64,000 nt of DNA from a virus. A program made the position numbers and the translations under genes. Location: the IMG/VR virus record IMGVR_UViG_3300043499_000238, positions 47,141-111,140 of that record; one strand, 5' to 3'. The notes under the pieces were generated by a model that was not told the origin of the DNA, searched no databases, and worked only from the letters and a program-made list of their open reading frames with translations. Positions 2,667 to 64,000 of the stretch are shown piece after piece (the stretch's first letter is position 1; every line of letters begins with the position of its first letter).

Positions 2667-3701
2667 TCAGCCTGCGTCGCCGGTCGCCGCGGCCGAGTCG
2701 GCCGTGGTGTTGTCCTGCGTCTGCGTGACCGTCAACGTCGCGGTGTTGGTGGCCGTGGCCGCCCCCGTCGTGATGTTGTTGCTCGCCGTCGAGGCGTTGG
2801 TCCCGGTGTTGGTGTTGCCACCGCTGCTGGTCCCACCCGCACCACCGGTCGCCTCGGCGGCATCGCTGCCGCTGGCGGCCGACGCACCCGAGCCGCCGGA
2901 GGCGGACGAGGTCGAGTCGCTGGACGAGTCGCTGGTGTGGGCGCTGCCGCCGTCGGCGTCGCTGTCGGCGTCCTGCGACGCCGAGTTGCTCTGGTTCACC
3001 GTGTTGGTCGCCGTGTTGCCGCCCGAGTTGGACGAGGCGTCCTGGCTCACCGAAGCGTGCACGGTGGCGTCCTGGTAGACGCTCGCCGAAGCGCTGGCCT
3101 CCGCACCGGTCGGCGTCGAGGACGCCGCGGTGGCGCCGCCAGCCGAGGAGGCCGACGTGGCCGCCCCACCGGTCGCCGTCGCCGTGTTGGTGTTGTCGTT
3201 GGTCTGCTCCTGCGAGATGCCGCCGTTGACGGTGTTGCCCGCCGTGGCCGCACCGGCTGCGATGCCGTTGGTGGCGCCGCTCGTGTTGCCGCCCGTGTTG
3301 CCGTTGGTGGCATCGCTGCCGCCGCCGACTCCGCCGGTCGCCTTCACGCCGCCGCCGCCCTCGGCCGCCGAGGCGCCCGAGCCGGAAGCCGCCGAGACCT
3401 CGTCCTCGGAGCGGTCGCTCGAAGAAGCGTCCCCACCGTTGGCGTCGGAGTTGGACTCCTGGTCGGCGCTGTTGGACTGGTCGACGTAGTTGTACTCGAC
3501 GTTGTCCCCGGTGTTGGTGTACGCCTTCTGGCACAGCTCGACGTCGGCGACGGCCGACTGAGTCACGCTGGAGCTGGCGTCCGAGACGGCCGGATCGGGA
3601 GCCGGTGCCTCTTCGGCGGACGCCGCAGCGCCGACACCGATGGTCAACCCCGCCGAAGCGAGGGTGGCGAGAACGACTCGCCGGGTCTTGGAACGAAGCA
3701 T
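2667..3701 (-). CDS. Secreted Ser/Ala/Gly/Asn-rich repeat protein
   Basis: The 344-residue product starts at ATG 3701 behind a strong AGGAGG. It has a classical signal peptide (basic start MLRSKTRR, hydrophobic core, ASA-E cleavage region near residue 29). The mature protein is almost entirely Ser, Ala, Gly, Asn, Asp and Thr. It contains two long copies of one pattern: N-T/S-G-x-N, then V-x-Q-S-N-S-A-x-Q, an acidic/Ser stretch, a Gly/Ala stretch, then GGNT...TAGNTV or TATNTA. The Q-x-N and N-x-G spacing recalls curlin-type or beta-strand repeats. It is the likely first gene of the leftward block with the 554-2581 gene. Composition is very unlike the phage structural genes, so acquisition from a cellular genome or a host flank is possible. 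Confidence 0.75.
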   Translation of the reverse strand: MLRSKTRRVVLATLASAGLTIGVGAAASAEEAPAPDPAVSDASSSVTQSAVADVELCQKAYTNTGDNVEYNYVDQSNSADQESNSDANGGDASSSDRSEDEVSAASGSGASAAEGGGGVKATGGVGGGSDATNGNTGGNTSGATNGIAAGAATAGNTVNGGISQEQTNDNTNTATATGGAATSASSAGGATAASSTPTGAEASASASVYQDATVHASVSQDASSNSGGNTATNTVNQSNSASQDADSDADGGSAHTSDSSSDSTSSASGGSGASAASGSDAAEATGGAGGTSSGGNTNTGTNASTASNNITTGAATATNTATLTVTQTQDNTTADSAAATGDAG

Positions 3702-5567: not shown

Positions 5568-7598
5568 CTACCGGGTCGGCGGCAGCTCGGGCGGAGCTGT
5601 CGTGGTGGTCGTGGTCGTCGGCGGGAACGGCCCGTTCGGGTTGGCGCACGCCGCCGTCTCGGGGGGGTACTCCACGAACGCCGTGGCCGTGGGGTTCACC
5701 TCGTAGGTGAGGTTGATGCCGTCGCGTAGGTAGTCGTCGCTCGGGTCGAGCACCCAAAAGCCGTCGCTGTTCAGCTCCCAGCCGGGCACGTCGGCGATCG
5801 AGCCATCGGGGTTCACGGCGGTACCGGGGTACAGCACCTGGACCGTGGTGCCCGGCTCGTAGACCAGCGGCTGCGACGACACGAAGTTGCCGTTGACATC
5901 CCGCATCGTCAGCGTGCCAGTGCGGCCCGCCAGCGACGGGAACTGGTTGCGGAAGATGATCTGGATCGTCGGCACCTCACGCTGGCACACCGTCTCAGCG
6001 TCTCCGAAGGAGAAGAGGCTAGGGATTGGTGGCGGAACGCTGCTGCTCGTCGTCGTGCTTGTCGATGACGGCGATGATGTGGTCGAGGACGACGGGCTTG
6101 TGGTCGTCGTCGTGGGCGTACCCTGCGTCGTCGTCGGAGCAACCGTGGTGGACGTGGTCGTCACCGCGGGGAGCGAGGTGGTCGTCGTTGAGGCCGTCGT
6201 GGTTGTCGGGGCAGCCGTCGTCGTAGTGGTGCCCCCTCCGGGCACGCTCGTGCTCGTCGTCGTGCTGGTGCTGCTGGGGACGGTTGTCGTCGTGGATGTC
6301 GTGCTGCTTGTCGTGGTGGTGGCCGCTGCGGTAGTCGTAGGGCCAGGGGGCTGGGTAGTGGTAGTCGAGGTGCTCGTCGTCGGGGCCACCGTGGTGGTGG
6401 ACGTAGACGTGCTGGTAACCGGCACGGTGGAGGTCGTCGTTGAGGGCGCGGTGGTCGAAGACGTCGATGAGGTTGTTGTACCCGCTGTCGTCGTGGTCGT
6501 ACACGTTCCTGGGTAGGTCACCGAGGCCGTCGCCGTCTCCGGGCCGAGCGAGTAGATCAGGTTGACGTTCTGCGTCGTGTTCGGGTAGGGGATCGTCACC
6601 GTCTGGTTCGACTGGAAGACCAGGAACACCGACCCGCCCGTGCTGAACGACAGGACTCCGGTCTGACCGTCGAGATCCGGCCGGTTGCCGAAGGTGATCG
6701 TGATCGTCGGCTGGCCATCCACGCACGACGTGAAGACGTTAACGCCGAACAGGCTCACCCTCGGCTGCGTCGTCGTCGTCGTGGACGATGTGGTCGTAGT
6801 GGTCACGACGGTAGATGACGTTGTTGGGGCCGTAGACGTAGTCGAGGACGTGGATGTCGTCGGTGGAGAAGTCGTCGTAGTTGAGGTGGGCGGGGAAGTC
6901 GTCGTGGTCGTTGATGTCGGCACCGCCGTGGTCGAGGTGGTCGTGGTCGTGGTCGTTGGCGTACCGGTGCAGCCGAGCACGCTCGGCTCGTCCTGGCCGA
7001 TGTCGTAGGCGATCACGATGGAGCGGCCCTGGCGGTCAGCGAAGAACGCACCGTCGATCACACCGTTCCAGTTGGGGATCGAGTGGATGTCGACCGAGAT
7101 CGGGTTGTCGCCGGTCTGGAGCCGCTCATCGACTCCCGGCGTCCCGACGAACTTGCAGACGAAGACCTTGTGGCTGACCTCAGTCGTCGTGGTCGCGCCA
7201 CCCGGCAGCGTCGTCGTCGTCAGAGCTGGGGAGGTGGTAGTCGTCGTAGTCGAGGAGGGGGCCGTTGTTGACGACGTAGCCGTCGTCGTAGAGGTGGTAC
7301 TGGATGTGGGTGTCGCCGTGGTTGTAGTACCGCCGTCCACGGTGGTGGTGGTGCGAGGAGGCGATGTTGTCGTCGGCGCCACCGTCGTCGTGTACTTCGG
7401 GATGGTCGACGTCGGCGTGATCGTGTTGTGGGTCGTCGTCGTCGGGTTGTCGTGTGGGGTCGTGACCGGCGCCTGTGTGGTCGACGTCTCGTACCCGCCC
7501 CGGAAAGCGTCGCCAGGCACGTCGAAGAACGCCATCGTGGGCGCCCCCACCGCCACCACTGCTGCCACGGCCACAACTGCTGCTACCCGCACCTTCAT
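5568..7598 (-). CDS. Large secreted Thr-rich mucin-like protein with three globular modules
   Basis: The 676-residue product has a signal peptide of about 23 residues (ending GAPTMA). Long Thr/Ser/Pro tracts separate three folded modules. Module 1 (about residues 142-211) contains KVFVCKFVGTPGVDERLQTG, a segment I recognise as recurrent in actinobacterial secreted proteins of unknown role. Modules 2 (about 281-366) and 3 (about 524-650) both open with LF and have the pattern C..[GE].P.I.I.F.N..P.L.G.TG.L, so they are diverged copies of one beta-sandwich. The Thr tracts are likely extended and possibly O-glycosylated. ATG 7598 is preferred to the TTG before it; GGGAGG lies upstream. No membrane anchor is seen. 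Probable role: cell-surface or matrix protein. Confidence 0.72.
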   Translation of the reverse strand: MKVRVAAVVAVAAVVAVGAPTMAFFDVPGDAFRGGYETSTTQAPVTTPHDNPTTTTHNTITPTSTIPKYTTTVAPTTTSPPRTTTTVDGGTTTTATPTSSTTSTTTATSSTTAPSSTTTTTTSPALTTTTLPGGATTTTEVSHKVFVCKFVGTPGVDERLQTGDNPISVDIHSIPNWNGVIDGAFFADRQGRSIVIAYDIGQDEPSVLGCTGTPTTTTTTTSTTAVPTSTTTTTSPPTSTTTTSPPTTSTSSTTSTAPTTSSTVVTTTTTSSTTTTTQPRVSLFGVNVFTSCVDGQPTITITFGNRPDLDGQTGVLSFSTGGSVFLVFQSNQTVTIPYPNTTQNVNLIYSLGPETATASVTYPGTCTTTTTAGTTTSSTSSTTAPSTTTSTVPVTSTSTSTTTVAPTTSTSTTTTQPPGPTTTAAATTTTSSTTSTTTTVPSSTSTTTSTSVPGGGTTTTTAAPTTTTASTTTTSLPAVTTTSTTVAPTTTQGTPTTTTTSPSSSTTSSPSSTSTTTSSSVPPPIPSLFSFGDAETVCQREVPTIQIIFRNQFPSLAGRTGTLTMRDVNGNFVSSQPLVYEPGTTVQVLYPGTAVNPDGSIADVPGWELNSDGFWVLDPSDDYLRDGINLTYEVNPTATAFVEYPPETAACANPNGPFPPTTTTTTTAPPELPPTR

Positions 7599-7705
7599 CA
7601 ACGCCTCCCAGCATCACCAGATCGGACCCAAACTACTCGACCATCCTTGAAGCAGGTGACCCTACTCGCCCTGCCCTTGTTGTGCAATGTGGTTGAATGA
7701 TGGGG

Positions 7706-10134: not shown

Positions 10135-11721
10135 GTGACGGCAGCCGTACGCGAGATCGCCGAAGAGCGATACGAGGAGTACGTCGAGGAGCAAGAGGAG
10201 GCCGAGGACTTCGTTGAGGTCGACCCCGACTCCGAGGAGTTCATCCACGAGCTGACGATGCGCTGCATGGTCTTCATGGAGGCGCTGGCCGAGATACAGC
10301 TCCACCCCTATCAGAAGGATCTGGCGTACCGCACGATCCAGTCGGTGTTGCTCAACGACGGCGCCGAGATCACCGCCCTGTGGGCACGCCAGTCCGGCAA
10401 ATCGACAGCGCTGGCGTCGATCATCGCGACGATGATGGTGCTGCTGCCCAAGTTGGCGGCCGCCTATCCCGAGCACTTCCCCCAGTTCGCTCGTGGGTTC
10501 CTCGTCGGAGTGTTTGCTCCGACTGAGGAGCAGGCGTACACGGTGTGGTCGAAGATCCACGACATCCTCACCTGCAAGCGCGGCCGCGAGATCCTCAGCG
10601 ACGAGGACATCGAGGACGTGCCGCAGAAGGAAGGCTCCAAGGTCAAGGTCGTCCGCCTCGTCAACAGCGGCTCGCTGTGCCGCATGCAGACCGCCAACCC
10701 GAAGGCGCAGATCGAGTCGAAGACGTACCACTTCGTGCTCCTCGATGAGAGCCAGGACTGCGACTCGGAGAAGGCACGCAAGTCGATCTTCCCGATGCTC
10801 GCCTCGACCAACGGCACCAAGGTGTTCACCGGCACCTGCTCGCGCAAGCGCAACTTCTTCTATGACGCCATCCAGGCCAACAAGCGCAAGGCGCTCCGTC
10901 GAGGCTCCCGGCAGGACCACTTCCAGTACAACTGGAAGGTCGTCGTCAAGTTCAACAGCTTCTACAAGAAGTACATCGCTGGGGAGAAGGAGCGGCTCGG
11001 CGAGGACAGTGACGAGTTCCGCCTGAGCTACGCATGCGAGTGGTTGCTGGAGTCGGGGATGTTCGTGACCGAGGAGTCGTTGGACTTCCTTGGCGATCCC
11101 GGCATGGAGATCCAGCCGTGGTTCGTGGTCGACAAGTGCGTTGCGGGAATCGACGTGGCGCGCACCAAGGACTCGACCGTCGTCACCGTGATGTGGGTCG
11201 ACTGGAACAACCCCGACCCGTACGGCTACTGCCAGCACCGCATCCTCAACTGGCTGGAGATCCACAACAAGCTGTGGGAGCAGCAGTACGCACAGATCAT
11301 CGAGTTCCTGTCGCACTACAACGTCGCGATCGTCGGTGTCGACGGTCAGGGCATGGGCCAGCCCGTCGGCGAGCGCATCGCCCACGAGATGCCGTGGGTC
11401 GACGTGCGCATCCTCAGCTCGGACCAGTCCACCCAGGAGAAGCGCTGGAAGCGGCTCAAGGCGTTGATCGAGCGGCGCATGTTCATCTACCCGGCCGGTC
11501 GCAAGACCAAGAGGCTGCGCTGCTACAAGCGCTTCCGGCTGCAGTTCGAGGAGCTGGAGACGGCGTACAGCGGCAAGTACATGCTCGCCGCAGCGCCCGA
11601 GGCGGTCAACGCCTTCGATGACTACTGCGACTCGGCGGCCCTCGGCGTGGCCGTCACCGAGGACGAGGACTTCGGCGTGGTGCAGGTGGTCGACTCACCG
11701 TTCCATGGTCGCCACCGGTAA
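10135..11721 (+). CDS. terL: Terminase large subunit (DNA-packaging ATPase/nuclease)
   Basis: The 528-residue product is the motor that packages DNA into the prohead. Walker A is seen as WARQSGKSTA (about residues 83-92). Walker B with the catalytic Glu is VLLDESQD (about 201-208), with a coupling-type S/T-rich segment following (ASTNGTKVFTGT). The RNase H-like nuclease domain begins with GIDVARTKDSTVV (about 338-350), then AIVGVDGQGMG (about 398-408), and a late acidic residue in FDDYCDSAALGV (about 492-503). Length and order are normal for the family. It is the first gene of the packaging and head block and uses a leaderless GTG start. Confidence 0.95.
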   Translation: MTAAVREIAEERYEEYVEEQEEAEDFVEVDPDSEEFIHELTMRCMVFMEALAEIQLHPYQKDLAYRTIQSVLLNDGAEITALWARQSGKSTALASIIATMMVLLPKLAAAYPEHFPQFARGFLVGVFAPTEEQAYTVWSKIHDILTCKRGREILSDEDIEDVPQKEGSKVKVVRLVNSGSLCRMQTANPKAQIESKTYHFVLLDESQDCDSEKARKSIFPMLASTNGTKVFTGTCSRKRNFFYDAIQANKRKALRRGSRQDHFQYNWKVVVKFNSFYKKYIAGEKERLGEDSDEFRLSYACEWLLESGMFVTEESLDFLGDPGMEIQPWFVVDKCVAGIDVARTKDSTVVTVMWVDWNNPDPYGYCQHRILNWLEIHNKLWEQQYAQIIEFLSHYNVAIVGVDGQGMGQPVGERIAHEMPWVDVRILSSDQSTQEKRWKRLKALIERRMFIYPAGRKTKRLRCYKRFRLQFEELETAYSGKYMLAAAPEAVNAFDDYCDSAALGVAVTEDEDFGVVQVVDSPFHGRHR

Positions 11722-41976: not shown

Positions 41977-42761
41977 GACCGATGCAGGGCATTGTCGCCA
42001 TCGCCGTTGTCGGTACGGCGGTCACTTGCGGTGCTGTCGCTGCAGGCGTCAACATCCGCAACGGCAACGAGCTACCACCTGCGCCGGTCAACGTGGTCGA
42101 CGTCAACGGTGCTGGTGTCGTGGAGACACCAGGCGGTGGCTCAGTCGTTGTCATCGAGGGCGAGCGCGGCCCGCAGGGCGTTCCCGGTGACCAAGGTGAG
42201 CAAGGAGACCAAGGTGAGCAGGGCATCCAAGGAGAGCAGGGCGACCCGGGTCCGCCGGGCAGTGTCGGCGAGCAAGGACCGCCTGGGAGCACGGGAGAGC
42301 GTGGTCCTGTTGGGCCTGCTGGCCGTGACGGGAGTCCTGGTCTCGCTGGCGCTCAAGGCGAGCAAGGCGCCCAAGGAGTCCCCGGTGACACCGGAGGCGT
42401 CGGACCGCCCGGTGAGGTAGGTCCGCAAGGCCAGCAGGGCGAGCAGGGAGCTACCGGAGCGCAGGGTCCGCCGGGCCAGGACGCTCAGAACGTGCCCGTG
42501 CCCGGGCCTCAGGGCGAGCAGGGCGCTGCTGGTCCAGCAGGACCGCCAGGACCGGCCGGGGAGTCCGTTACCGGCCCGCAGGGTCCACCGGGAGCGCAGG
42601 GCGCTCAAGGCGAGCCAGGAGCGCAAGGAGAGCAAGGTCCGCAGGGCGAGCAGGGACCAGCGGGCCAGGACGGTGGCTCGTGCCCTGGCTCGATCCAGAC
42701 GTTCATCGTGCACGTACTCGACGGCCCCAACAAGACGATCCAAGCGTGCGTAGTTGGGTGA
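41973..42761 (+). CDS. Membrane-anchored or secreted collagen-like protein
   Basis: The 262-residue product starts at GTG 41973. Residues 4-27 are hydrophobic ([20 protein letters not shown]), an uncleaved anchor or signal. From about residue 55 to 235 it is Gly-X-Y collagen repeats rich in Pro, Gln and Glu ([20 protein letters not shown]), with a few breaks. It ends with a short non-repeat tail ([20 protein letters not shown]), possibly a trimer cap. Collagen-like proteins occur in tail fibres and in phage-coded surface proteins. The hydrophobic start here points to the envelope rather than the virion. Its start overlaps the preceding gene's stop by 4 bases, so it belongs to the lysis block. 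Confidence 0.82.
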
Positions 42762-60852: not shown

Positions 60853-61112
60853 TGGGTGAGCCACTTGACGACCTGATCCGCCTCGCCGAGGAGATGTCGC
60901 GACGCAGGCTGCTGACCCAGTTCGGTGTGCACGACAGAGAGCAGTTGGCTGCGTTGAAGGAGCACCTGGAGTCGGCACCGAAGCCGCCCGGCGGGCTTCC
61001 CGACGCCTCCCTCTTCTGCGGTGCCCCGATCTACTACGACGAGGACGTCCCGGTAGGGATCTTGCGTTGCTACTTCAACGACAACACGACGCAGGACGTG
61101 AGGCTGACGTGA
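60852..61112 (+). CDS. Hypothetical protein
   Basis: The 86-residue product starts at ATG 60852, sharing a base with the preceding stop. The N-terminal half is a charged helix (LDDLIRLAEEMSRRRLLTQF) and the C-terminal half contains LFCGAPIYYDEDVPVGILRC, a beta-like segment with two Cys. It overlaps the next gene by 4 bases (GTGA). No family is recognised. Confidence 0.55.
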   Translation: MGEPLDDLIRLAEEMSRRRLLTQFGVHDREQLAALKEHLESAPKPPGGLPDASLFCGAPIYYDEDVPVGILRCYFNDNTTQDVRLT

Positions 61113-62086
61113 CGGTGCTCGGCATCTTCGGCGACAAGGACGCACCAGCACTACTGGTGACCGCCGCCCTCAACGACATGCTCGAAGCTCACCTCGTTGA
61201 TCACGAGGGTGAGGACTTCTGGCTGTGCGTCGGCGTGCGCAAGCCGCTCGCCATCTACCAGACCATCATCGGCTGGGCGCTGCACAACGGTCTGTACGTC
61301 GCCGTGTACACCAAGTTCAACACGCCCTCGTGGGAGGCGGTGTTCGGTAACGGTGAGTTCGAGGTAGCGGAGTGGCACCACTCCGACCGATGGATGCTCG
61401 ACGTTGTAGAGCGGCTCTCCGCCGAGCACAACGCAACGATCTACGCCCTGATGGGCGATGAAGATCCACCAGTAGATGTCCGCCGTGCGCTAGTACGTGC
61501 GCTGGACAGCGGGCTGGAGGTACGAGACCTCGCAGAAGCAGGTCTCACGTACGTCGGCGTCGCCGACAACCCCATTAGACAAGGGAGCAACACCATGGCC
61601 AAGGAAGAGATGACACTGGAGCAGGCCGGAGAGCTTGCCGACGAAGGAGATGCCGAGTCGATCCAGGCACTGGTCGACCTCGCCGAGCGCTTCGAGCTGG
61701 ACCCCGACGACTACCCGACGTGGGTCGAGCTGGGCACCGTGCTCGACCCGCTGCTCGCCGAGGCTGAGGCCGAAGCGGAGGGTGGCGAGGGCGAAGGCGG
61801 AGAGGCCGAGCCGGATGACGAGGCGCCCCGGCGCAACCGCGGCGGCAACATCTCCGCCGAGGATCTCGAAGAGAAGAGCGTGCCCGAGCTGCGTCAGCTC
61901 GCCAAGCAGCTCGGTGTCGACGGGTGGGAGAAGAACCGCTCGGCCAAGCTGATCGAGGGCATCCTCGAAGCACAGGGCAACGGTGACGGCCCCCCTCGTC
62001 GGGCGGCCGCAGCCGCGGACGACGACACCCTGCTGGCAATCCTGGCGCGGGGTCTGCGGGCCTTCGCCGACGCACTATCGAGCTGA
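61109..62086 (+). CDS. Two-part protein: Rossmann-like domain plus acidic linker and SAP/Rho-N-like domain
   Basis: The 325-residue product starts at GTG 61109. Residues 1-160 look like a nucleotide-binding alpha/beta domain: VTVLGIFGDKDAPALLV, then IYQTIIGWALHNGLYVAVYT and HNATIYALMGDEDPPVDVRR. A linker of about 70 Glu/Ala/Gly residues follows. About 250-285 is a SAP/Rho-N-type helix-extended-helix (LEEKSVPELRQLAKQLGVDG, then KNRSAKLIEGILEAQG), a nucleic-acid-binding motif. An in-frame ATG at 61595 with AAGGGAG upstream could make a 163-residue short form carrying only the acidic linker and SAP part. Confidence 0.65.
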   Translation: MTVLGIFGDKDAPALLVTAALNDMLEAHLVDHEGEDFWLCVGVRKPLAIYQTIIGWALHNGLYVAVYTKFNTPSWEAVFGNGEFEVAEWHHSDRWMLDVVERLSAEHNATIYALMGDEDPPVDVRRALVRALDSGLEVRDLAEAGLTYVGVADNPIRQGSNTMAKEEMTLEQAGELADEGDAESIQALVDLAERFELDPDDYPTWVELGTVLDPLLAEAEAEAEGGEGEGGEAEPDDEAPRRNRGGNISAEDLEEKSVPELRQLAKQLGVDGWEKNRSAKLIEGILEAQGNGDGPPRRAAAAADDDTLLAILARGLRAFADALSS

Positions 62087-62178
62087 ACCCTGGCGCCAAG
62101 CTTCCGCTTGACTTTGATGACGTCTTCCTGATCACCCGAGAGCGCCCGATCCCTCGCAAGACGGGTCGGGGTGTTCGG

Positions 62179-62526
62179 ATGACGATGTACGACCACTGGC
62201 GCGAGATCGTCTACGACGCTGTCGACGCCAAGGGCGGCATCGTCCGCATGGGACCGAGCATCTTCAACAAGCACATGTCGATCCTGCGCGAGCGCTACGA
62301 GGTCACGGCGATCCGCGATGGCTTCCGTCGGTTCGCCGCACTTGTTGAATCGGGTAAGGTCGACGTCCGGGGCAAGTCCGCCTGGTTCGTCTTCTTCGGA
62401 CGGTACGAGCGGTTCATCCCGCAGTTCAAGCCTGCCGAATCCATCGCCGACGTCGAGAGGAAGCCCGTGAAGACGCTCGCCGACTTCAAGCCACAGACCG
62501 GGCGCAACGTGCTCGCACCTCCATAG
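62179..62526 (+). CDS. Hypothetical protein with uncertain N-terminus
   Basis: The 115-residue product from ATG 62179 (or ATG 62185) is mainly helical and basic (YDHWREIVYDAVDAKGGIVR, FGRYERFIPQFKPAESIADV). No ribosome-binding site precedes the ATG. The frame stays open with coding-like content to about 62074, starting with residues such as LNPGAKLPLDFDDVFLITRE, but without ATG, GTG or TTG. A non-standard start or a -1 shift from the preceding gene is possible. Function unknown; a DNA- or RNA-binding role is conceivable. Confidence 0.5.
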   Translation: MTMYDHWREIVYDAVDAKGGIVRMGPSIFNKHMSILRERYEVTAIRDGFRRFAALVESGKVDVRGKSAWFVFFGRYERFIPQFKPAESIADVERKPVKTLADFKPQTGRNVLAPP

Positions 62527-62534
62527 AACGAGAG

Positions 62535-62556
62535 CGGCCCCCCTTCCGGGGGGCCG
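62535..62556 (+). terminator. GC-rich hairpin terminator
   Basis: A perfect 9-bp stem (CGGCCCCCC / GGGGGGCCG) with a TTCC loop lies 8 bases after the preceding stop. It closes the long rightward structural block. Confidence 0.75.
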
Positions 62557-62692
62557 TCCTCATTGTGACTGACCAACACCATCACCACCGCACCGGGCTA
62601 CCAACCCCAACACAGAGTGCCTCTGGCAACTTCCATCAACAGAGGAGTGACGATGCAACTGTCGCTCCTCACTCTACACGAAAGGGTGAGTG

Positions 62693-63343
62693 ATGCAACA
62701 TCATTCAACAGCAGACAGGCCACCTCTCACGGTGGCGCCCGACCCGGTCCGAGACCTCTTCTTCGCCTCCCACATCGGGGCCGAGATCGCCGTCGGGCGG
62801 TCGGAGCACACCAACGTGGTGACCATGAAGCACTTCGACCTGTGCCACGCCTGGCGCTCGCCGCAGTGGATGCTCGTCCACGGGATGCCCAAGTTCTCCA
62901 ACCACGAGTGGCGGGTGCTCGACCACGTCATCTTCAACGGGCGGATGGCCGAGGGGTACCAGACGTGGACGGCGATCAGGGGTGGCCAGCAGACGATCAA
63001 CAAGTCGCTCGCCTACGAGACGGCGATCGATACGCACAACGTCAGCAGGGTCATCGCTCGCCTGCACAAGGTCGGGCTGCTCGACTACGGCGAGTCGCAT
63101 TCGAGGGAGTCGGTCTACCTCACCGAGCACTTCCACCGCATGATGTTCGAGGTCCGATGGCGAGCCGAGCTACGTAACTCAGCCCCCCAGGCGGTGAAGC
63201 AGATCCTCATTGTTGAGGACTGGAAGTGGATGATGGAGCGGGTCGACAAGGTCTTCCGGTGCGACCCGGACCTCAGCTACACACGTCGGGACGACCGCCG
63301 TCGTGCTCTCGGGGAGGCGCTGTATCCGCTCTTGCGTCGCTAA
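62693..63343 (+). CDS. Winged-helix protein, possible replication initiator
   Basis: The 216-residue product starts at ATG 62693 (or GTG 62690), with AAAGGG upstream. Residues about 63-150 form a winged helix: HEWRVLDHVIFNGRMAEGYQ, QQTINKSLAYETAIDTHNVS, RVIARLHKVGLLDYGESHSR, then the wing strand ESVYLTEHF. This is the arrangement of plasmid Rep and phage replication initiators and of related repressors. The C-terminal part is basic (VDKVFRCDPDLSYTRRDDRR). Four palindromic iterons begin 6 bases after the stop, which strongly suggests it binds them. A repressor role cannot be excluded. Confidence 0.62.
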   Translation: MQHHSTADRPPLTVAPDPVRDLFFASHIGAEIAVGRSEHTNVVTMKHFDLCHAWRSPQWMLVHGMPKFSNHEWRVLDHVIFNGRMAEGYQTWTAIRGGQQTINKSLAYETAIDTHNVSRVIARLHKVGLLDYGESHSRESVYLTEHFHRMMFEVRWRAELRNSAPQAVKQILIVEDWKWMMERVDKVFRCDPDLSYTRRDDRRRALGEALYPLLRR

Positions 63344-63348
63344 CTCGT

Positions 63349-63431
63349 GGTGCACGAGGTACACCGGGGCTGGTGTATGAGGTACACCAGGCCGGTGTGC
63401 GAGGTACACCGCTCGGTGTATGAGGTACACC
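63349..63431. repeat. Four palindromic 17-bp iterons
   Basis: Consensus GGTGTATGAGGTACACC, at 63349-63365 (GGTGCACG... variant), 63372-63388, 63394-63410 (GGTGTGCG... variant) and 63415-63431. Each is itself an inverted repeat (GGTGTA / TACACC with a 5-base centre). Start-to-start distances are 23, 22 and 21 bases, about two helical turns, so bound proteins would lie on one face of the DNA. Confidence 0.85.
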
Positions 63432-63482
63432 ACGATATGGCTATCTACCAGGGCAAACGGGGGGTCCAAGAAGCCAATGCTT

Positions 63483-63517
63483 AGTAGAGCTACTTCCGAG
63501 TAGAGCTTCGCTCTACT
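63483..63517. repeat. Direct and inverted AGTAGAGC repeats
   Basis: AGTAGAGC occurs at 63483-63490 and 63499-63506, and its complement GCTCTACT at 63510-63517. The second and third copies form an 8-bp stem with a 3-base loop; the first could pair in competition. Confidence 0.75.
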
Positions 63518-63546
63518 CTCCAGTGCTCTCATTTGAGGATGAACCT

Positions 63547-63567
63547 CTCCGGCGGGCGACGCCGGAG
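63547..63567. other. Hairpin
   Basis: CTCCGGCG and CGCCGGAG make a perfect 8-bp stem with a 5-base loop (GGCGA). It could be a terminator ahead of the next promoter or a structural part of the origin. Confidence 0.6.
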
Positions 63568-63576
63568 GTGCTCTGA

Positions 63577-63605
63577 TTGCATTGAGAGGTACAGCGGTGT
63601 TGAAT
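63577..63605 (+). promoter_or_regulatory. Leaderless promoter with both boxes
   Basis: TTGCAT, a 17-base spacer, then TTGAAT, then 6 bases to ATG 63612. With the site at 4207-4235 it is the best-formed promoter of the set, although its -10 box starts TT rather than TA. Confidence 0.55.
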
Positions 63606-63611
63606 GACACG

Positions 63612-64000
63612 ATGACCACCGAACCACTACCGGGTGCTACCCCGCAGGTACTGAGACGCCGTGGTGAGTTGGTGGGCAACGCCTTTCGCACCATCGGTAC
63701 CCGCCCCTCTTCCACCAGCGGTAAGCCAGTGCTCATCCGTGACAACATCGCTCCGTATCTCCAGAGCATTGGCTGCCCGCTCCTCTTCCCCGGCCCGCTC
63801 TCCCTCCTCACCATCGACAACGCAGCACTGCGCAACTCGATCGATGACTCCGCCAAGGCGGGTGGCTGGGTCAAGCGCGCCGGGTGGGCGATCTCCCCGA
63901 GCATCGAGATGCTCTCCACTGCCACCGAGTACGCCGCCGTCGCATGCTCTGAGTTCCTCCGACGTGGTCGCGCCGTCGCATGGCGCACCGTCGAGCAAGT
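63612..64000 (+). CDS. Hypothetical protein, cut by the right edge
   Basis: The frame opens at ATG 63612 and is still open at 64000 (at least 129 residues). An in-frame GTG at 63597 is possible but overlaps the promoter. The start is polar (MTTEPLPGATPQVLRRRGEL); then follow RDNIAPYLQSIGCPLLFPGP and a helical, Arg-rich stretch (YAAVACSEFLRRGRAVAWRT). Codon use is coding-like. No family is recognised from the visible part. Its place after the origin-like region suggests an early or replication-linked gene. Confidence 0.6.
   Translation, partial: MTTEPLPGATPQVLRRRGELVGNAFRTIGTRPSSTSGKPVLIRDNIAPYLQSIGCPLLFPGPLSLLTIDNAALRNSIDDSAKAGGWVKRAGWAISPSIEMLSTATEYAAVACSEFLRRGRAVAWRTVEQ

Follow-up and report, generated by a model that had tools for sequence, protein, structure and literature searches.

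The window analysed here, a stretch of 64,000 nucleotides, forms the final 64 kb of a 111,140-bp viral record (IMGVR_UViG_3300043499_000238), and it ends just behind an array of four short repeats which, together with the gene in front of it, is considered here as a candidate replication origin (positions are those of the window unless stated otherwise). The gene lies on the plus strand (62690-63343, start GTG at 62690 or ATG at 62693), codes for a winged-helix protein of 217 amino acids, a candidate replication initiator, and is followed by a gap of 238 bp (63344-63581); an earlier note on this DNA had called this gap the largest, which by crude gene calls it is not. The four near-identical 17-bp palindromes described in the same note are present on the plus strand, with start spacings of 23, 22 and 21 bp: repeat 1, GGTGCACGAGGTACACC (63349-63365), repeat 2, GGTGTATGAGGTACACC (63372-63388), repeat 3, GGTGTGCGAGGTACACC (63394-63410), and repeat 4, again GGTGTATGAGGTACACC (63415-63431). 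Their consensus is GGTGYRYGAGGTACACC, and each is an imperfect palindrome of the form GGTGYR-YGAGG-TACACC, in which 12 of the 17 positions match the reverse complement. The asymmetric GAGGTACACC, comprising the centre and the right arm, is invariant in all four repeats, so that the palindromes double as directional direct repeats. On the other side of the gap begins a plus-strand gene for 233 amino acids at the position of a helicase loader; its 5' part occupies 63582-64000, and it runs on to base 431 of the record.

The array is unique in this genome. Across the whole record the 17-mer pattern gives the four exact copies and one site with two mismatches inside a tail-region gene, and this is the sole array in the record with at least four copies at three or fewer mismatches, while none of 100 Markov-shuffled genomes has one. 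The earlier note had held that an operator would recur at many promoters; the 17-mer does not, and no other site lies at a gene start. The same paired 17-mers were absent from the other viral contigs searched, and an Rfam search returned a chance miRNA match and nothing else.

Three bases past the last repeat begins the 100-bp window (63434-63533) that ranked first for instability among all windows of the 111-kb circle in a nearest-neighbour scan, and this is our candidate DNA unwinding element. For windows of 150 bp, the weakest one in the genome begins inside the array itself. Of all gaps of 100 bp or more, 44 in number, the array gap comes first in weakness, so a fair chance probability for this coincidence is about 1 in 44. 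The gap also contains the direct and inverted repeats claimed before, namely two direct copies of AGTAGAGC (63483-63490 and 63499-63506) and an inverted copy (63510-63517). Hairpin 1, GAGTAGAGC-TTC-GCTCTACTC (63498-63518), has a perfect 9-bp stem and a 3-nt loop, and is one of two such perfect hairpins in the genome; hairpin 2, CTCCGGCG-GGCGA-CGCCGGAG (63547-63567), the second hairpin of the earlier note, stands directly before the next gene and is real in the sequence as well as in the DNA fold. The single strand of the segment forms a much stronger fold than shuffled sequences do (z -6.5), mainly owing to the palindromes.

The genes that follow the array become visible when the record is closed. 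Its two ends overlap by 148 bp (window 63853-64000 corresponds to record bases 1-148) with two adjacent mismatches, which suggest strain variation or an assembly error; an exact end repeat is absent from the two ends. Due to this overlap, the map can be joined into a circle of about 110,992 bp, and across the join the 233-amino-acid gene is followed by two small genes, a DnaB helicase (record 1176-2453, Pfam match 2e-25), a Toprim primase, an SNF2-type helicase, a family-A DNA polymerase (PolA) and RecA. On the closed map the array therefore heads the replication module, flanked by the winged-helix gene and the helicase operon. Repeat arrays with hairpins are also known to mark packaging (pac) and recombination sites, and the segment could be such a signal instead of an origin; however, the large terminase gene is far off (10135-11721), replication genes adjoin the array, and, as described below, repeats are conserved together with the winged-helix gene, so we hold this explanation to be extremely improbable. 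The phage encodes a tail sheath besides the large terminase and is thus myovirus-like.

Divergent relatives were obtained by searches based on the sheath and on DnaB, with DnaB identities to G005, G006 and G010 of 24-30%. In G010 and G006 the order is a tail gene, a small membrane gene, a gene for about 300-430 amino acids, a winged-helix gene, a repeat-bearing gap, one to three genes, DnaB, primase and SNF2. In the G006-type gap, three palindromes at 22-24 bp start right at the winged-helix stop codon; their phasing is similar to that of the present array, and their sequence is different. The G006 gap starts with GGTGTCCCACCAGTGGGTC, GGTGTCCCACTGGTGGGTC and GGTGTCCCATTCGTGGGTC, with exact copies nowhere else in the 100-kb G006 record, and in three metagenome relatives, whose winged-helix protein shares about 55% identity with the G006 protein, the gap starts with three palindromes of the form GTGTCCC[A/G]GATT[C/A]GGGACAC, spaced 22 and 23 bp apart. 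The 100 bp behind the winged-helix stop codon hold rank 1-3 in weakness in 8 of the 10 relatives' loci. Unlike the protein of the window, the winged-helix proteins of the relatives have matches to families of phage replication initiators: phrog_270 (3.5e-6 and 4.2e-6), phrog_8102 (2.2e-5), the O-like phrog_678 (4.3e-4) and phrog_391 (8.9e-4), and Pfam HTH_36 (1.8e-7).

For the protein of the window itself, an AlphaFold2 model of residues 56-160 (nine sequences) is a winged helix at moderate confidence (predicted local distance difference test, pLDDT, 74.5; predicted template modelling score, pTM, 0.68). Among viral models, Foldseek returned a mixture that includes the N-terminal domain of lambda GpO, replication initiators and unrelated regulators. 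For this predicted structure the Foldseek matches show the winged-helix fold and not the function, and it is the position of the gene together with the shared fold that makes an initiator role plausible.

We consider it likely that the segment is a phage theta-type replication origin organised like the lambda origin, with iterons, an unwinding element and hairpins. An origin beside its initiator is supported because the array is unique, heads the replication module and adjoins the weakest DNA in the genome, and because this architecture is kept in relatives. That part of the earlier note, which had proposed an iteron-type origin next to an initiator, is thereby supported; its suggestion of plasmid-like replication is not, since the sites are palindromes of the lambda type, and these point to a dimeric lambda-type initiator rather than to a monomeric plasmid Rep. 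In such a scheme the product of 62690-63343 would bind the four palindromes as dimers, and at 21-23 bp, about two helical turns, all sites would lie near one face of the helix. The nucleoprotein complex would strain and open the weak DNA at about 63434-63533, the phage's own DnaB would be loaded there, probably aided by the protein of the next gene, and the phage primase would then prime.

Several observations weigh against this interpretation. The winged-helix protein of the window has no family over threshold in Pfam, NCBIfam or PHROG (its best Pfam hit, MarR_2, has an E-value of 0.022, under the cut-off), no Pfam Rep match (Rep_1, Rep_3, RepL etc.), no sequence match in the PDB and no convincing homologue in viral contigs or named phages. 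The nearest solved folds of its core are MarR regulators, and hhalign against the relatives' winged-helix proteins gives a probability of 1.9%, which leaves homology to these or to initiators undemonstrated. Hence the Rep-type winged helix of the earlier note is borne out as a predicted core fold and in positional homologues that match initiator families, and not as a significant family match of the protein itself. The 233-amino-acid gene has weak DnaC/DnaA-like AAA+ similarity (best NCBIfam E-value 0.026, PHROG DnaC-like loader 0.13) and found no match among the relatives' loaders; with a Walker-B-like stretch (VIDGVQLL) and no recognisable Walker A, it is perhaps a decayed AAA+ loader, and a loading function in this phage would follow from its place. 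A turning point of guanine-cytosine (GC) skew at the array, a check that the earlier note had proposed, was looked for and not found; GC skew drifts along with gene direction, and the skew at fourfold sites favours no origin at the array. Among relatives, the six of the G010 type have a gap with short direct repeats of the GCAACTGAC type and a hairpin, and no clear long palindromes; the rank of the weak DNA is poorer in L107 (62nd) and L114 (35th); and in BRock-type relatives and G005 the array and arrangement were not found at the module head, so the arrangement is not universal.

The main rival is an operator array: a MarR-like repressor or activator would bind the four palindromes and thereby control the replication operon behind them, and the weak DNA would belong to a promoter. 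Palindromic sites are what a dimeric regulator would need, the array is indeed upstream of the replication operon, and MarR regulators are the top Foldseek matches. However, four tandem phased sites stand in one place with none at other gene starts, they lie behind the regulator gene and not in front of it, and the positional homologues match replication-initiator families. A scan of 62000-64000 for promoters of the sigma-70-like type found none. A terminator was not found either. We regard the operator explanation as rather unlikely; initiators are often autoregulators, and operator and origin roles can coexist.

The earlier note had also raised the possibility that this phage replicates or persists like a plasmid, that is, a plasmid-type iteron origin with a plasmid-like lysogenic state. 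The repeats beside an initiator-like gene, the record that closes on itself and the lack of a match to the integrase families PF00589 and PF07508 in this genome would agree with a phage-plasmid. Still, the end overlap equally fits terminally redundant phage DNA, the sites are palindromic, ParA (PF13614) and ParB (PF02195), the two partition types covered, were not found, and a search of a plasmid collection yielded remote matches and nothing closer. Relatives carry integrases, and G006 sits inside a 1.13-Mb Terracoccus scaffold, most simply as an integrated prophage of Terracoccus sp. 273MFTsu3.1. The missing integrases, of the two types tested, would fit a virulent phage. We therefore find a plasmid-like state very improbable. 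The segment probably adds one more case to a kind of origin that is already known, and it is not evidence for plasmid life.

A bolder proposal, which we judge improbable, is a distinct actinophage origin class. Its winged-helix initiator would evolve fast, and the palindromic sites would diverge together with it (four of the form GGTGTA..TACACC here, three of the form GTGTCCC..GGGACAC in the relatives). Location, phasing and weak DNA would stay the same, as would a C-T(T/A)C-G triloop hairpin in some members of the group, and this hairpin would serve in single-stranded DNA for priming or for entry of the helicase. In the G010-type relatives (L114-L119) the same gap holds a hairpin with a 10-12-bp stem and a TTC or TAC loop closed by C-G, so that hairpin 1 and these hairpins share the C-T(T/A)C-G loop on stems of 9-12 bp. 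In the G010-type comparison 8 of 9 inner pairs vary with pairing retained, a count biased to pairing as the stems were aligned by their loops, while the constancy of the loop is independent of the alignment. A function of hairpin 1 in single-stranded DNA, for entry or for priming, is our guess.

On its opposite strand, hairpin 1 reads as a C(GNA)G mini-hairpin. In addition, CCAGTGCTCT at 63518-63530 is the reverse complement of AGAGCACTGG, a direct repeat in the G006 gap (L107:6205-6241), and L108 carries AGAGCATCTA twice; these may be a further origin motif that the phages have in common, or a coincidence. Elsewhere in the genome, the gene upstream of the winged-helix gene (61067-62086) has a C-terminal Rho_N domain (E-value 4e-7), and a gene of similar length takes the same place in relatives. 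Three large genes without a Pfam match (554-2584, 2667-3701 and 5568-7601, minus strand) stand in the main minus-strand block, collagen-like Gly-X-Y coding repeats occur at about 42186-42600 (record about 89326-89740), and 0 tRNA genes were found in the phage genome.

To our knowledge, replication origins have rarely been mapped in large actinobacterial myoviruses. The locus offers a compact candidate origin (protein, four sites, weak DNA and hairpin) with comparators from other lineages, and it is directly testable. The comparison suggests that origin sites may change their sequence alongside the initiator with the geometry kept, which would help to locate origins in unannotated phages.

Among known systems, the Streptomyces phages BRock, GiJojo and pSt2308 share the order DnaB, primase, SNF2 helicase and PolA, a DnaC-like loader upstream and genomes of about 112-115 kb, but a winged-helix gene with a palindromic array was not found at the head of their module. 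In iteron plasmid replicons, Rep monomers bind iterons that are direct repeats and for the most part not palindromic. Those of the P1, F and RK2 type resemble the present locus in having phased repeats beside the gene of a winged-helix protein; unlike in them, the sites here are palindromic and not direct only, there is no Rep family match, the count of DnaA boxes near the array is no higher than chance, and partition genes of the two types mentioned were not found.

Bacillus phage SPP1 has gp38, gp39 and gp40 (origin binder, loader and DnaB-type helicase) with oriL, where repeats accompany an A+T-rich unwinding element (PMC6316719). A candidate for each member of this trio, and repeats plus a candidate unwinding element, are seen here, whereas oriL of SPP1 is situated within gene 38, has repeats described as direct, and is accompanied by an oriR, compared with the single array found here. 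The lambda origin consists of four 19-bp near-palindromes, to which O binds as dimers, and an adjoining A+T-rich stretch of 40 bp where the DNA opens; the genes for O and the loader P share an operon, and P brings DnaB (PMC5043065). Here the array lies directly behind the candidate initiator gene and not inside it as in lambda, the phage has its own DnaB, primase and PolA, two hairpins follow the array, and the window protein is without detectable sequence homology to O. What the two have in common is four tandem imperfect palindromes of about 17-19 bp next to easily melted DNA, an initiator gene (here a candidate) beside a helicase-loading position (here with a weakly recognised loader), and, in the relatives, winged-helix proteins with O-like matches.
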